Origin: Pseudobythopirellula maris
Lineage (GTDB): Bacteria; Planctomycetota; Planctomycetia; Pirellulales; Lacipirellulaceae
DNA: 64,000 nucleotides
Assembly (NCBI RefSeq): GCF_007859945.1
Contig: NZ_SJPQ01000002.1
Location: 62,001-126,000 of the forward strand
Direction of reading: 5' to 3'
Each line of letters starts with the position of its first letter. Position 1 is the stretch's first letter. The position numbers and the translations under genes are program-made. This document shows, one piece after another, positions 51,342 through 56,840 of the stretch. The notes under the pieces were generated by a model. The model had not been told where the DNA came from. It was given only the letters and a program-made list of their open reading frames with translations, and made no database searches.

Positions 51342-51739
51342 GAGTGGCTTTCTGTTCTCGTTCGCATCGACAGACACGAACTTCTTCAACACCAACAAGA
51401 CTCAACACCAACAGGGCGGTCGATCAAGTGCGCCAACAGCGGTCGCGCTCGGACCGAGGGCGTGCAGACTAGGGGCTCGGATGGGGGTCGCCGGGTGAAC
51501 TCCCGCGATCGCGGCGCACGGCGGCCCCCAAGTGGCGAGACAGCCTTATTATCATACTCGATCGCTACACCTGGCGGTTTGCGGGTCCCGGCGCCTGACG
51601 GGCGGGCGGCTGCGGCCGGGCGACGCCGGCGGAGGGCGATGGCCCCGCGCCGATGGCGGCTTATACTGGCCAGTCGCTGCTCCTCGGAATCCAACCTCTC
51701 GAATCCACCTCTTTGGGCGCCACACCCGTGACGACACTG
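51342..51739. promoter_or_regulatory. divergent promoter region pectate lyase / GH43
   Basis: 398 bp between divergent carbohydrate-enzyme genes. An AT-rich block TTATTATCATACT near 51547-51559 is the best promoter candidate and can be read as a -10 on either strand (TATGAT on minus). A shared control site for the XylR-like regulator is expected here but I cannot define one. Confidence 0.5.
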
Positions 51740-53356
51740 ATGCGATCCCTCCCCATGCCTGCTACGCCCCGGCTGCTTCTCCGTGTAACGGTGCTGCTGT
51801 GCCTGCTGACCGGCCCCTCGCTGGCCGAGCCGTGGGTCGCCGACCCGGGAGACGGGACCTACCGCAACCCGGTGCTGTTCGCCGACTACTCCGACCCGGA
51901 CGTGGTGCGCGTGGGCGACGACTTCTACATGACGGCGTCGAGCTTCAGCTGTGTGCCGGGGCTGCCGATCCTGCACTCGCGCGACCTGGTGGAGTGGGAG
52001 CTCATCGGCCACGCCGTCGACCGGCTGCCCGAACGCTTCAACCAGCCGCAGCACGGCAACGGCATCTGGGCGCCCTCGATCCGCCACCACGATGGCTGGT
52101 TCTGGATCTTTGTGGGCGACCCCGACTGGGGCATCCTGATGACCAAGTCGAAGAGCCCCACCGGGCCGTGGTCGCCGCTGCACGTCGTGAAGGAAGGCAA
52201 AGGGCTGATCGATCCCTGCCCGCTGTGGGACGACGACGGCCGGGCCTACCTCGTGCACGCCTACGCCAACAGCCGCTCCGGGCGCAAGTCGATCATCGTC
52301 GCCCGCGAGATGGCGCCCGACGGCAGTCGCCTGATCGGCGAAGAGCACCTGGTGATCGACGGCCGCAACGACGTGCACCCGACGATCGAGGGCCCGAAGT
52401 TCTACAAGCGCGACGGCTGGTACTACATCCTGGCCCCGGCCGGCGGGGTGAAGCCGGGCTGGCAGCTCGCCGCCCGCTCCAAGGCGCCGCTTGGGCCCTA
52501 CGAAGTGCGACGCGTGCTCGAGCAAGGGACGACCGATATCAACGGCCCCCACCAAGGAGGCTGGGTCTCGCTCGAGAACGGCGAGGACTGGTTCCTCCAC
52601 TTCCAAGACCGCGGCGCCTACGGACGCATCGTCCACCTCAACCCGGTCCGCTGGGTCGACGGCTGGCCCGAGATGGGCGTCGACCTCGACGGCAACGGCG
52701 TGGGCGAACCGGTCGAAACGCACGCCGCGCCGGGCGTCGGCGCCGATTGGTCGGTGGCCGACCCGCAAACCTCCGACGACTTCGACGGCCCGCTCGGCTT
52801 GCAGTGGCAGTGGCACGGCAACCCCGCGCCCGACTGGGGCTCGGTCACCGAGCGGCCCGGTTGGCTGCGGCTGCACGGCGTCGAGCCGCCGGCGGGCGAC
52901 CTGACGGAGGTCGTCACGCAGCTGCTGCAAAAGTTCGCCGCCCCCGCCTTCTCCGCCACCACACGACTGGAGTTCTCGCCCGCCGCCGACGGCTCGTCCA
53001 CAGCGGGCCTGGTGGTGCTGGGACTCGAGCACGCCGCGATCGTTGTGCGTAAGGACGACGAGGGCCTCCGCATCGAGCAGTTCAGCAACAAAGTGGCCGG
53101 CGCCGGTGGCGAGGACCGCGTCCACGGCTCGGTCGCTCTTGATCCGTCGCCTGCGGAGCAAGCGGCGGTGTGGCTGCGTGTGAACGTCGAACCGGGCGCC
53201 CTCTGCCGGTTCAGCTACAGCACCGACGGCGAGAGCTACCACGATCTCGGCCAACCATTCCACGCCACCCCCGGCCGCTGGATCGGCGCCAAGGTCGGCC
53301 TGTTCTGCTTAGGCAAGAACGCCCAGGCGGACTTCGACTGGTTCGAAGTCGAGTGA
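51740..53356 (+). CDS. glycoside hydrolase family 43 protein
   Basis: 538 aa from the ATG at 51740 (the frame is open to 51653; ATG 51755 is also possible). Signal peptide then a five-bladed propeller. The catalytic base is in FADYSDPDVVRVGDDFYM, the pKa modulator in IDPCPLWDDDGRAYLVHA, and the catalytic acid Glu in TIEGPKFYKRDGWYYIL. A C-terminal beta-sandwich (about 350-538; DDFDGPLGLQWQW, DRVHGSVALD, FCLGKNAQADFDWF) is the domain found in GH43 xylosidases. Expected activity: beta-xylosidase or alpha-arabinofuranosidase on side chains of xylan or pectin. Confidence 0.93.
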   Translation: MRSLPMPATPRLLLRVTVLLCLLTGPSLAEPWVADPGDGTYRNPVLFADYSDPDVVRVGDDFYMTASSFSCVPGLPILHSRDLVEWELIGHAVDRLPERFNQPQHGNGIWAPSIRHHDGWFWIFVGDPDWGILMTKSKSPTGPWSPLHVVKEGKGLIDPCPLWDDDGRAYLVHAYANSRSGRKSIIVAREMAPDGSRLIGEEHLVIDGRNDVHPTIEGPKFYKRDGWYYILAPAGGVKPGWQLAARSKAPLGPYEVRRVLEQGTTDINGPHQGGWVSLENGEDWFLHFQDRGAYGRIVHLNPVRWVDGWPEMGVDLDGNGVGEPVETHAAPGVGADWSVADPQTSDDFDGPLGLQWQWHGNPAPDWGSVTERPGWLRLHGVEPPAGDLTEVVTQLLQKFAAPAFSATTRLEFSPAADGSSTAGLVVLGLEHAAIVVRKDDEGLRIEQFSNKVAGAGGEDRVHGSVALDPSPAEQAAVWLRVNVEPGALCRFSYSTDGESYHDLGQPFHATPGRWIGAKVGLFCLGKNAQADFDWFEVE

Positions 53357-53400
53357 ACTAAGACCTCTACGGCCAAGGGGCTCGCCAGCCTCATGAAAAG

Positions 53401-53474
53401 CGCGCCCGGCAGGACTCGAACCTGCAACCACTGGTTTCGAAGACCAGTGCTCTATCCAATTGAGCTACGGACGC
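53401..53474 (-). tRNA. tRNA-Arg (anticodon TCG), copy 1
   Basis: 74 nt, acceptor GCGTCCG/CGGGCGC with one G-T pair, anticodon loop CTTCGAA (TCG), T stem GCAGG/CCTGC with loop TTCGAGT. It lies just downstream of a decayed copy of the small membrane-protein gene. Confidence 0.96.
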
Positions 53475-53554
53475 GTGTGTCGTGCAGGTCGATGCTACGC
53501 CACGGCGTGGGTCGCCGGTATCCCTGTGCGCTCGGGGGACGAGGCGGGCGGTGT

Positions 53555-53706
53555 TCACTGGATCCAGTTCAGCCCCGTCAGCAGGAGCGGCGTGGGCGAC
53601 GATCATACCCATCTGCTCGTTGCGTGTCGCGGCGTAGACCAGGCTCACGCTGACGATCCAAGGCAACGCGTACCAAATACGCAGCGGCTCGGTCGCCATC
53701 AGCCGT
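53555..53706 (-). pseudogene. truncated, frameshifted copy of the small membrane-protein gene
   Basis: Nearly identical in DNA to part of 55878-56108. It keeps the coding of MATEPLRIWYALP.IVSVSLVYAATRNE and the last codons plus stop. A net deletion of 44 bp near 53586 (between short GCGG repeats) shifts the frame, and the first ~14 codons and start are missing. The similarity continues through the spacer into the adjacent tRNA-Arg, so the unit was duplicated together with the tRNA. Confidence 0.88.
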
Positions 53707-53716
53707 GCGGCGAGCG

Positions 53717-54619
53717 CTAATCTACCACGCACACGCCCTCGCGTGCGGTCAGCTCTTGGAACGCCCGAGAGAGCCGCTCGTACACCGGGCCGGCGCCGCC
53801 GGCGCCGATCGGCCGGCCATCGACCTCGACCACGGGCGCCAGCTCGCCCATCGTGCCGGTGCAGAACATCTCGTCCGCGCTGTAGACGCCGGTGAGCGAG
53901 AGGTCGCGCTCCGAGTAAGCGACGCCCGCCTCCTCGCACAGGCCGAGGACCGTGGTGCGGGTGATCCCCGCCGGGCAGGCGACCAACCGCGGCGTGAGGA
54001 CCGCGCCGCCCGCCGCCACGAACACGTGGGTGGCGTTCGTTTCCGCCACGAACCCGCGCGGGTCGAGCATCAGCGCGTCGTCGGCTCCGGCGGCGTTGGC
54101 CTGGATCTTGGCCAGGATCGAGTTCAGCAAGTTGTTGTGGTGCACGAGCGGGTCGAGCACGTCCGGCGCCGGCCGCCGCCAGGTCGACGTGACGAGCTTG
54201 AGCCCCGACTTGTCATAGACCGGCGCCTTGAACTCGGCTAGCACGATCAGCGTCGGCCCCGACTGGTTGAGCCGGGGGTCCATGCCGCTGGTGACCTTTA
54301 CGCCGCGCGTGAGGGTCAAGCGGATGTGGACCCCGTCGCGCATGCCGTTGGCCTCGAGCGTGCGACGGATCTCTTGGATGATCTCCTCGTGCGTGGGGAT
54401 CGCCGCGAAAGCCAGCGCGAGGGCCGACTTGCGCAGCCGGTCGAGGTGCTCGTCGAGCTTGAAGATCCGCCCGTCGTACAGCCGCAGCCCTTCCCAGACG
54501 GCGTCGCCCCCTTGGACCACCGAGTCGAAGGGGCTGACCCCCGCGCGGTCGCGGTGCTCGAGCCGGCCGGCGATGTTGACGATCAGGTCGCGATTGCGTT
54601 CGTCGAATTTCTGCAGCAT
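53717..54619 (-). CDS. class IV aminotransferase-like protein (BCAT/DAAT family)
   Basis: A 300-aa fold-type IV PLP protein: QGGDAVWEGLRLYDGRIFKLDEHLDRL (36-62), LTLTRGV, TSTWRRPAPD, a conserved Glu in VAETNATHVF (near 193, matching E. coli IlvE), ITRTTVLGLCEEAG and DEMFCTGT. At the position of the PLP lysine (IlvE Lys160; K in DIKSLNLL of D-amino-acid transaminase) this protein reads LVHHNNLLNSILAK, with His160. No other lysine fits well, so either the alignment slips or the enzyme is atypical. It lies next to a sulfotransferase-like gene (90 bp upstream), a pairing I recall from other genomes. Confidence 0.88.
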   Translation of the reverse strand: MLQKFDERNRDLIVNIAGRLEHRDRAGVSPFDSVVQGGDAVWEGLRLYDGRIFKLDEHLDRLRKSALALAFAAIPTHEEIIQEIRRTLEANGMRDGVHIRLTLTRGVKVTSGMDPRLNQSGPTLIVLAEFKAPVYDKSGLKLVTSTWRRPAPDVLDPLVHHNNLLNSILAKIQANAAGADDALMLDPRGFVAETNATHVFVAAGGAVLTPRLVACPAGITRTTVLGLCEEAGVAYSERDLSLTGVYSADEMFCTGTMGELAPVVEVDGRPIGAGGAGPVYERLSRAFQELTAREGVCVVD

Positions 54620-54709
54620 GGTTTCACTAGCGCCCCCTAAGGGCGCGGGCCGAGGTGCGGGGAGCTTGGCGCCGCGGCGCGAAGCCCCCTTGGTTACGAG
54701 GTACCTTGG

Positions 54710-55546
54710 TTACGAGGTAAGCGTCTCCCCCGCAGCGGGAGGGCTCTGGCGAGGGGCTCGCAGACGCAGCGGCGCCAGCCGCTCGTAGAGCGATTCGCAC
54801 TCCTGGAGCACGGGGAGCAGGCGCTCCGGCACGGCGTCGTCCTTCGGTCGGTAGCGGCCGAAGGAGGTGGTCTTGTAGACCTTGTCGTACCAGTAGGGGC
54901 CCCAAGGCCCGTCGCTGTCGCGCGGCCCGGGCTCCCAGCGGAGCATCGCCTCGTCGAACACGACGCCGAGCCGCTCGCACAACACGCCCAGCACGCCCCG
55001 CGGATCGTCCAGCACGTCGCGGCCGTCGACGACCGGCGGCGCCTGGCCGGTCCGCTCACCGAGGTGCTCCAGCAGCTTGACCTGCTGGGGCAGACCGGTG
55101 TCTTCGACCGTGGGGTGCGGCAGGAACTCGAGCAGCGAGGTTAGCATCTCGCGGGGCTCGCGGATCAGCAAGCAATTGACGAGCCGCTCGGTCCAGTCCA
55201 GCTCGATGCTCGGGAGCAGGTGGTGGGCCATGTGCTTCTGATAGTAGATCGAGAAGCCTTCGGGCGGCGGGGGAACCAGCCGCCGCGTGACGGCCCGCCA
55301 GTCGGCCGATCCCGAGCGGAGCGTCTCCTGGTGACCGGGGTGATCGCTGCGGCCGGTCGTCGCCAGGTAATGCGCGTAGAGCGGCTCGTCGCAGACGACC
55401 GTGTCGGGCCGGCTCTCCCACGACCGCATCAGCGCGGTCGAGATGTTCCGCGGCCCGGACCACATGGCGACACAAATCGCCGACCGGCGATCGGTGTCGG
55501 GCGGGGGAGCTGTCGCGAGACGGGGTTGTTCGGCCATGCCGAACAT
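54710..55546 (-). CDS. sulfotransferase-like family protein
   Basis: 278 aa from the ATG at 55546 (ATG 55537 possible). The N-terminal VAMWSGPRNISTALMRSWESRPD (about 26-48) is a PAPS/phosphate-loop-like segment with invariant Arg and Ser. YQKHMAHHLLP and LIREPREMLTSLLEF (about 135-149) match the 3'-phosphate-binding segment of sulfotransferases. The fold is a P-loop NTPase relative. It ends 90 bp before the aminotransferase start, same strand, so the two are likely one transcript. The acceptor is unknown. Confidence 0.85.
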   Translation of the reverse strand: MFGMAEQPRLATAPPPDTDRRSAICVAMWSGPRNISTALMRSWESRPDTVVCDEPLYAHYLATTGRSDHPGHQETLRSGSADWRAVTRRLVPPPPEGFSIYYQKHMAHHLLPSIELDWTERLVNCLLIREPREMLTSLLEFLPHPTVEDTGLPQQVKLLEHLGERTGQAPPVVDGRDVLDDPRGVLGVLCERLGVVFDEAMLRWEPGPRDSDGPWGPYWYDKVYKTTSFGRYRPKDDAVPERLLPVLQECESLYERLAPLRLRAPRQSPPAAGETLTS

Positions 55547-55692
55547 TATCGTCAAACCGCGGCGCCTGGCGAGCCACCCTATCCGGACCCCCGCGTGGCC
55601 AACAAGCCTTCTCACGACGCACTCGGGTCGGCGCCAGAACGCTCTGGCGTGCTCGTGAGCGCCAAGCCCACCCAACGGTTTATAGAAAGAAG

Positions 55693-55766
55693 TACGCCCG
55701 GAGGGATTCGAACCCCCAACCCCCGGTTCCGAAGACCGGTGCTCTATCCAGTTGAGCTACGGGCGC
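55693..55766 (-). tRNA. tRNA-Arg (anticodon TCG), copy 2
   Basis: 74 nt, acceptor GCGCCCG/CGGGCGT ending in a G-T pair, anticodon stem CCGGT/ACCGG with loop CTTCGGA (TCG, G37), T-loop TTCGAAT. It differs from copy 1 at many stem positions but keeps pairing. Confidence 0.95.
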
Positions 55767-55877
55767 ATGTCTCGGGCCGTCTATGCTACGGCGCCCCGTG
55801 GGGCGTCGGTATCCCTCTCCTCGTTCGGCGGGCGTGGCCGGTCGCGATGCCGAGGCGGGGCCGGCGGGCCGCAAGGC

Positions 55878-56108
55878 TCACTGGATCCAGTTCAGCCCCG
55901 TCAGCAGGGCGGCCATGCTGGCGATGAACACCACCAGCCAGCCGCCGAAGCGGGCGGCGTGGGCGACGATCGTGCCCATATTCTCGTTGCGTGTCGCCGC
56001 GTAGACGAGGCTCACGCTGACGATCAAAGGCAACGCGTACCAAATGCGCAGCGGCTCGGTCGCCATCAGCAGAGGGGCGATCAACGCGAATGAGGTGAGC
56101 GGGGCCAT
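55878..56108 (-). CDS. small two-helix membrane protein
   Basis: A 76-aa protein. The first hydrophobic span is about 18-38 (WYALPLIVSVSLVYAA), then a short loop TRNENMGTIVAHAARFGG, then a second span (WLVVFIASMAALLTGL). The ATG at 56108 gives an additional N-terminal hydrophobic stretch; ATG 56066 is an alternative. It lies 78 bp downstream of the DUF6677-like gene and 111 bp upstream of tRNA-Arg. Function unknown; a damaged duplicate is at 53555. Confidence 0.8.
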   Translation of the reverse strand: MAPLTSFALIAPLLMATEPLRIWYALPLIVSVSLVYAATRNENMGTIVAHAARFGGWLVVFIASMAALLTGLNWIQ

Positions 56109-56186: not shown

Positions 56187-56840
56187 TTAGTTCGCCGCGC
56201 CGCCGGGGTCTTCGCCTTCGGCTTTTTTGCCGCCGGGCTTCTTACTCTTCTTCGGCTCGTGGTGGACGACCATCGGACCGCAGCAGGCGTCGTAGATGAC
56301 GATCACGTTCAGCATGCCGGCGATCACCGTGTAGACGGTTCCCAAGTCGAAGTAGTAACCGAGGTCGTAGGTCCACTTGGCCAGCTCGCCGGGGTGGAGC
56401 ACTTGGTTGCCGACGGCGTCGACCGAGCTGATCTCCACGCCGGGGCCCGCGGTGCGCGGCGGGCGGAACCAGCCGCCCATCAGCGGCGGCTCGTTCTTCA
56501 GCATGCGGTCTCGTTCGACGAGTCCGGGGATCGCCACCGCGCCGATGCCCGACTGGCAGATGAATTGCCAACGGTCGACCAACTGGGTGACCCGGCCCTT
56601 GATCCCGCCGACGTCGACGGTGAGCGGCGTGGCGTAGGCGACCTTGCCGTCGCCGACATAGAAGCCGAACACGAACGTGCCGAGGATGCAGATCGCGTAG
56701 AGCAGCCCCTTGCCGGTGCGTCCTTGGTACAGGTGGCCCAGGCCGGGCACGAGCCAAGCCAAGAAACCCGCCAGGTAGCGGTTCTTTAGTTCGAGGTCGG
56801 CGTACGGCCGCCCGTCGCCGGGCTGGGGGGAATTGGTCAT
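56187..56840 (-). CDS. DUF6677-like TM2-type membrane protein
   Basis: 217 aa. N-terminal AGFLAWLVPGLGHLYQGRTGKGLLYAICILGTFVFGFYVG (about 24-62) is a TM2-like pair of helices with the conserved PGLGHxYqGr. Two further hydrophobic spans follow near 165-190 (YTVIAGMLNVIVIYDACCG). The C-terminus is Lys/Pro/Gly-rich and cytoplasmic. The family is frequent in planctomycetes and uncharacterised. It is probably co-transcribed with the 76-aa membrane protein. Confidence 0.8.
   Translation of the reverse strand: MTNSPQPGDGRPYADLELKNRYLAGFLAWLVPGLGHLYQGRTGKGLLYAICILGTFVFGFYVGDGKVAYATPLTVDVGGIKGRVTQLVDRWQFICQSGIGAVAIPGLVERDRMLKNEPPLMGGWFRPPRTAGPGVEISSVDAVGNQVLHPGELAKWTYDLGYYFDLGTVYTVIAGMLNVIVIYDACCGPMVVHHEPKKSKKPGGKKAEGEDPGGAAN

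Follow-up and report, generated by a model that had tools for sequence, protein, structure and literature searches.

How did a planctomycete genome come to carry two complete tRNA-Arg(TCG) genes, each joined to most of the same small membrane-protein gene, on either side of an unrelated aminotransferase–sulfotransferase pair? The locus lies in a 64,000-nucleotide stretch of the Pseudobythopirellula maris genome (hereafter the window; G+C = 67.7%), on a 1.3 Mb contig of an assembly totaling 5.07 Mb in six contigs. Read 5' to 3' on the minus strand, the order is DUF6677, the intact membrane-protein gene (MP), tRNA-Arg(TCG) B, a sulfotransferase-domain gene (ST), a class IV aminotransferase-fold gene (AT), a damaged copy of MP (MP') and tRNA-Arg(TCG) A (Table 1); searches of Pfam and NCBIfam at the chosen thresholds assigned MP itself to no family. 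An earlier note on this DNA had read the arrangement as a segmental duplication with one decayed copy. The explanation that we consider probable is a single, lineage-specific copying of the MP-tRNA part as a direct repeat, with ST-AT located between the copies, the copied protein gene decayed and the spare tRNA kept.

Table 1. Features of the duplicated locus and its neighbors, in window coordinates.
Feature	Position	Strand	Content or evidence
Block A	53400-53713	minus	most of MP gene, spacer and complete tRNA-Arg(TCG)
Block B	55692-56080	minus	most of MP gene, spacer and complete tRNA-Arg(TCG)
GH43 gene, convergent neighbor beyond copy A	51653..53356	plus	PF04616, 2.7e-66
tRNA-Arg(TCG) copy A, extra	53400..53474	minus	ARAGORN; 72.6 bits; 21/21 pairs kept
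Spacer A, shorter than spacer B	53475..53554	minus	38 nt of spacer 82% identical to B
MP', truncated and frameshifted MP copy	53555..53713	minus	alignment with MP
AT, class IV aminotransferase-fold gene (Aminotran_4), second of pair	53717..54619	minus	PF01063, 8.1e-45
ST, sulfotransferase-domain gene (Sulfotransfer_5), first of pair	54710..55537	minus	PF19798, 1.3e-44
tRNA-Arg(TCG) copy B, native	55692..55766	minus	ARAGORN; Rfam tRNA model, 68.0 bits
Spacer B, MP stop to tRNA B	55767..55877	minus	aligned to spacer A
MP, intact small membrane-protein gene, 76 aa	55878..56108	minus	ORF and family homologues
7-bp repeat, one edge of stretch absent from MP'	55952..55958	minus	GGGCGGC
7-bp repeat, other edge of stretch absent from MP'	55907..55913	minus	GGGCGGC
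DUF6677 gene, native upstream neighbor of MP	56187..56840	minus	PF20382, 9.5e-31

Base-by-base alignment confirmed that blocks A and B match through tRNA, spacer and membrane-protein gene, as the note had claimed, and that the two copies bracket AT and ST. The match comprises a direct repeat of 127 nt at 91% identity (53587-53713 and 55954-56080, with 11/127 positions differing), the 3' end of MP, where 31/31 nt are identical (53555-53585 and 55878-55908), 38 nt of the spacers at 82% and an 88-nt stretch across the tRNA, also at 82%. Homology ends on one side at 53713, three bases from the AT stop codon, and on the other a few bases past the tRNA 3' end; the 3' flanks of tRNAs A and B, compared with each other and with those of 13 relatives, yielded local scores of 11-21 and no homology signal.

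To establish which copy is native, we examined the MP stretches of relatives (n = 19, each 6.7-11 kb) with tblastn and ARAGORN. DUF6677 was present in all 19 stretches and lay side by side with MP in 18 of them by tblastn, which missed MP in the nineteenth (L062), where HMMER found it. A tRNA-Arg(TCG) occupied the same strand, 3' of MP, in 12/19 stretches, giving a family block order of DUF6677-MP-tRNA-Arg, and ARAGORN detected no tRNA-Arg in the other seven, so the block is not universal. Copy B adjoins DUF6677, as MP does in relatives, and is therefore the native one; block A is the extra copy. Neither AT nor ST had a match in any of the 19 stretches, and GH43 had none on their tRNA side, the single GH43 match (28%, in L059) falling on the DUF6677 side. 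Across the family, MP was found in 38/43 genomes, with two copies in this one; the other 42 contain exactly one in 37 cases, no match in five—all under 90% complete—and two in none, a distribution that upholds the proposed segmental duplication. At the protein level, MP' and MP share 81% identity across 47 aa, against at most 59% to MP for the other family genomes, so a split of the two copies within this lineage is most likely, the genus being represented in this comparison by the window's own genome. The sister-genome comparison suggested in the note could thus be made between genera only; it bore out the single MP copy and the lack of AT and ST at the MP locus, but the tRNA-Arg was seen there in just 12 of the 19 stretches.

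The decay of copy A is selective, affecting the protein half only. MP' lacks codons 1-9 of MP and retains an in-frame ATG corresponding to MP codon 15. The description of this copy as having lost its start is accordingly too strong, given that this ATG remains and that one relative (L182) has no possible MP start before codon 15 either. MP' also lacks 45 bp, a stretch bounded in MP by two 7-bp GGGCGGC repeats, and has gained one base there; the net loss of 44 bp reported earlier therefore stands, with longer repeats than the GCGG first noted. The 45-bp loss is in frame, and it is the extra base that shifts the frame of MP', with loss of the second half. From the MP' ATG an open frame of 102 codons runs on through spacer and tRNA, which we take to be a product of chance. 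Among 41 comparable codons, MP' and MP show four silent and six non-silent differences. Hence "one copy decayed" applies to MP', which is broken, but not to tRNA A, which is complete, scores higher than tRNA B with the covariance model (Table 1) and lies nearer the consensus.

Both tRNAs are structurally intact: ARAGORN recognized each as a complete tRNA-Arg(TCG) with stems and Arg anticodon preserved, both are among the 49 matches of the Rfam tRNA model in the genome, and 21/21 stem pairs are kept in both, as counted on a cloverleaf written by hand. They differ at 13/75 positions: three double-sided changes account for six of these, two more are one-sided with pairing kept, and five fall at unpaired sites; when tRNA A was given 13 random changes, only 98 of 200,000 mutants kept all pairs. 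From this pattern we infer that both copies are under selection as tRNAs. Relative to the consensus of 13 relatives, tRNA A shows 4 differences and tRNA B 9; the former is 2 changes away from the tRNA of a g3 genome, and the latter 5 changes away from the tRNAs of one g4 and two g2 genomes. Although tRNAs are usually slow to change, these two diverge more than MP does (Fisher p 0.075 against 11/127, p 0.021 against 11/158), an unexpected pattern if a single simple event was followed by drift. The nearest-relative test, run against family genomes outside the genus, split the block: MP joins MP', whereas tRNA A is nearer the g3 tRNA. Its T-arm is identical to that of tRNA-Asn, and that of tRNA B is one base from the tRNA-Met T-arm. 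Gene conversion of an arm from another tRNA of the same genome was considered and set aside: both T-arm types recur among the 13 relatives, so that no conversion donor can be named. The T-arm pattern may stem from switching that happened repeatedly, from conversion or from tRNA A being of mixed origin. As for expression signals, inspection by eye placed the hexamer TATGCT directly before the tRNA in 6/13 relatives' spacers, with similar hexamers in several others, and TAGCAT before both tRNA A and tRNA B. A consensus promoter scan found no site directly before either tRNA and one site (9/12 matches) inside MP', ~130 bp before tRNA A. Judging from these motifs, transcription of tRNA A from a promoter of its own within the copied spacer is possible.

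The intervening genes have a history of their own. ST (E <= 1e-40) occurs in 12/43 family genomes, this one included. In a set of 96 loci—the window, the best 80 of 255, 13 stretches from relatives and two further, some being the same genome under two names—AT adjoins ST on one strand in 73, the window included, and the two are fused in none. The other 23 show no ST match at the threshold (in L168, no AT match), in at least four cases from AT lying at a contig end; in G036, ST and AT sit on different contigs. The 13 ST-AT stretches, which come from 12 relatives, contain no tRNA-Arg, and the window's flanking genes had no match in them at the threshold used. Their own flanking genes agree within g6 and g13, with few matches between genera; g7 showed no such agreement, one of its stretches being just 4.9 kb long. 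The occurrence of the pair at other loci, with other flanks, implies that ST-AT relocates as a unit and that its site here is non-ancestral. Of the note's suggestion that the pair was inserted or trapped between the copies, the part that holds is that it is not native to this position. A clean empty site was sought in g6, where two pair-less species keep the AT-side flank; the ST-side flank is not kept, so no precise insertion edge can be read. A clade uniting the window's pair with 11 family pairs, evaluated on a quick AT+ST tree of 33 rows chosen by hand, was not rejected (p-AU 0.745), so an origin of the pair outside the family is not required; the free search on these rows failed to return the clade, and enforcing it gave a better-scoring tree. 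A quick AT tree of 95 rows placed the window without starred support. With five measured neighbors spanning a GC3 of 0.761-0.909, ST (0.888) falls within their range and AT (0.934) above it, and GC3 gives no clear answer on the origin of the pair.

These observations bear on an alternative in which copy A and the pair were imported together, by homologous recombination, from a lineage carrying MP'-tRNA'-ST-AT. It would account for tRNA A being 2 changes from the g3 tRNA and 13 from tRNA B, for the tRNA diverging more than MP and for the patchy occurrence of the pair in the family, and the high GC3 of AT fits as well. Against it stand the identity of MP' to MP, far above that of any other family genome compared, the ordinary GC3 of ST and the family clade that includes the window. 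We regard joint import as unlikely, although it is the strongest of the competing accounts, and its donor could possibly be found within the same genus.

Less probable still, and in our view quite improbable, is that site-specific integration at the tRNA-Arg 3' end brought in a mobile element carrying ST-AT and left the second tRNA as a copy of the attachment site. According to PMC9897764, tRNA genes are common integration sites, and an island integrated in this way is expected to have a complete tRNA at one end and a partial one at the other. Its repeats would cover no more than a portion of the tRNA, and an integrase gene would be expected with it. The locus resembles such integrative elements (ICEs, prophages and genomic islands) in having non-native genes directly 3' of tRNA B and between two tRNA copies. 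It departs from them in that both tRNAs are complete, the repeat reaches upstream through the spacer into MP codons instead of spanning just the tRNA 3' part, ST and AT are the only recognized genes between the tRNAs, and the copies lie only ~2.3 kb apart, start to start. Moreover, a search confined to PF00589 integrases returned 10 matches in the genome and none near the locus, the sole one on this contig being ~760 kb away. With no such match nearby and both tRNAs complete, a tRNA-targeting island is unlikely.

That two unrelated tRNA-Arg genes merely resemble each other is as good as refuted: two other tRNA pairs are at least as similar as A and B (62/75), which only share second place when the genome's 49 tRNAs are compared pairwise, so the duplication rests on the common MP and spacer, and block A searched against its own genome matched block B at E 2.3e-54, far beyond chance when set against ten other matches, all 2e-15 or weaker and confined to the tRNA part (ARAGORN found a tRNA in seven of the eight followed up as loci, L074 being the exception). 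Direct repeats are prone to misassembly, but an assembly artefact is equally implausible here: the tRNA copies differ at 13 positions, the MP copies at 11, several indels separate the two blocks, and both lie inside the 1.3 Mb contig.

Under the lineage-specific duplication that we favor, a single event would have placed a second copy of the 3' part of the native block immediately downstream in direct orientation, this part comprising MP from roughly codon 10 onward together with its spacer and tRNA, and the two-gene ST-AT unit, located elsewhere in the relatives examined, would have come between the copies. The unneeded MP' would then have decayed through a deletion between the 7-bp repeats (probably of the slippage type), a one-base insertion and truncation, while the spare tRNA would have persisted as a second gene of sound structure, perhaps driven by a promoter of its own within the duplicated spacer; we infer both this order of events and the expression of both tRNAs. 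The final map could have been reached by tandem duplication followed by insertion of the pair, by copying of a block in which the pair was already present, the second pair then being lost, or by uptake of a small circle through homologous recombination.

In a broader context, the locus shares with small segmental duplications that lose a redundant protein gene its direct repeats, the single copy in relatives and the breakage of one protein copy by a repeat-flanked deletion and a frameshift. Unlike a plain case of this kind, the duplicated tRNA is structurally sound, with compensatory changes, and unrelated genes lie between the copies. It also resembles the additional isoacceptor tRNA genes of bacteria, with a second gene of the same anticodon and an intact cloverleaf, but here the copies differ at 13/75 positions and both are known from sequence. 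The literature that we found on tRNA-gene duplication concerns eukaryotes only. Seen in 1/43 family genomes, this is a real segmental duplication with selective decay and a matter of ordinary genome remodeling; it offers a clean, ordinary example of selective retention, in which the copied tRNA was kept and the copied protein gene lost, and it fixes the native block order in the family. As a unit that changes place, ST and AT should be investigated together, not as neighbors of this tRNA.

Finally, AT falls well within Aminotran_4 (153.8 bits against a cut-off of 28.5), and the PLP-binding lysine expected of class IV aminotransferases is not present. His160 occurs in 95/95 AT rows (91 of them different), and the genome's own class IV paralogue, 44% identical to AT, has at that position a Lys that we presume to be the Schiff-base, PLP-binding residue. 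An aminotransferase-sulfotransferase fusion exists in plants. Very tentatively, ST-AT might be a portable module whose aminotransferase-fold partner gave up Schiff-base PLP chemistry and works with the sulfotransferase, moving among planctomycetes and other phyla; the repeat described here would be the trace of one such move and could allow loss or amplification by recombination. That an aminotransferase-fold protein carries His where Lys is expected is perhaps more interesting than the duplication itself, and the same may be said of the GIY-YIG genes that, elsewhere, are framed by broken tRNA copies.

Residue 160 of the class IV aminotransferase-fold gene (AT), which follows the sulfotransferase-domain gene of the pair, is a histidine, versus lysine in the class IV paralogue of the same genome (44% identical). 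This histidine was found in all 95 aligned rows, 91 of them different, although the row set is partly biased because one of the six patterns used in the search for 80 of the AT loci included the His motif. The sets of 13 stretches from relatives and two further loci were retrieved without that motif. R46, E193 and T256 of AT belong to the 111 columns that are at least 98% identical. Among the best 80 of 255 loci, the AT of highest identity to that of the window (77%) is L077, located on a 3.9-kb contig labeled Acidobacteria; in the tree, the AT rows nearest to it are planctomycete, and the contig is possibly mis-binned.

The small membrane protein (MP) encoded upstream of the native tRNA-Arg(TCG) copy comprises 76 aa and was found in 38 of the 43 family genomes. 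No Pfam or NCBIfam model matched it at the thresholds used, and the window protein and its relatives share a conserved core close to WYAxPLIVSVSLVxAATRHE.

Small GIY-YIG genes were present beside tRNA genes in five of the 43 family genomes. An intact tRNA-Asn lies directly 5' of the GIY-YIG gene in P. maris (where this arrangement occurs twice, in tandem), G010 and G052, while in G057 and G020 the gene is directly 3' of an intact tRNA-Pro; the matches of G052 and G057 contain a stop. In four of these genomes (all except G052), the intact tRNA is accompanied by broken versions of itself, located ahead of it, past the nuclease gene or on both sides, with a C/G-rich, palindrome-like stretch in place of the anticodon arm. 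The unit resembles a very small element that would insert into a tRNA gene and restore it. Among the matches listed, the papers concerned fungal mitochondria and phages; one of them (PMC13096335) deals with a phage homing endonuclease reported to promote segmental amplification.

P. maris also carries a tandem pair of tRNA-like genes, 81% alike, that differs from its remaining tRNA-Arg and tRNA-Asn genes.

Locations of the genes described
Feature	Location	Assignment
AT	window 53717-54619 (-)	class IV aminotransferase fold
MP	window 55878-56108 (-)	
GIY-YIG locus, P. maris	L234:3396-4185 (contig C1, about 980.4-981.2 kb)	PF01541 match
GIY-YIG loci, other family genomes	L247, L248, L249, L250	PF01541
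tRNA-like pair, P. maris	L235:4952-5165 (contig C3, about 132.95-133.16 kb)	called tRNA-Arg(TCG), 73 nt, and tRNA-Asn(ATT), 72 nt
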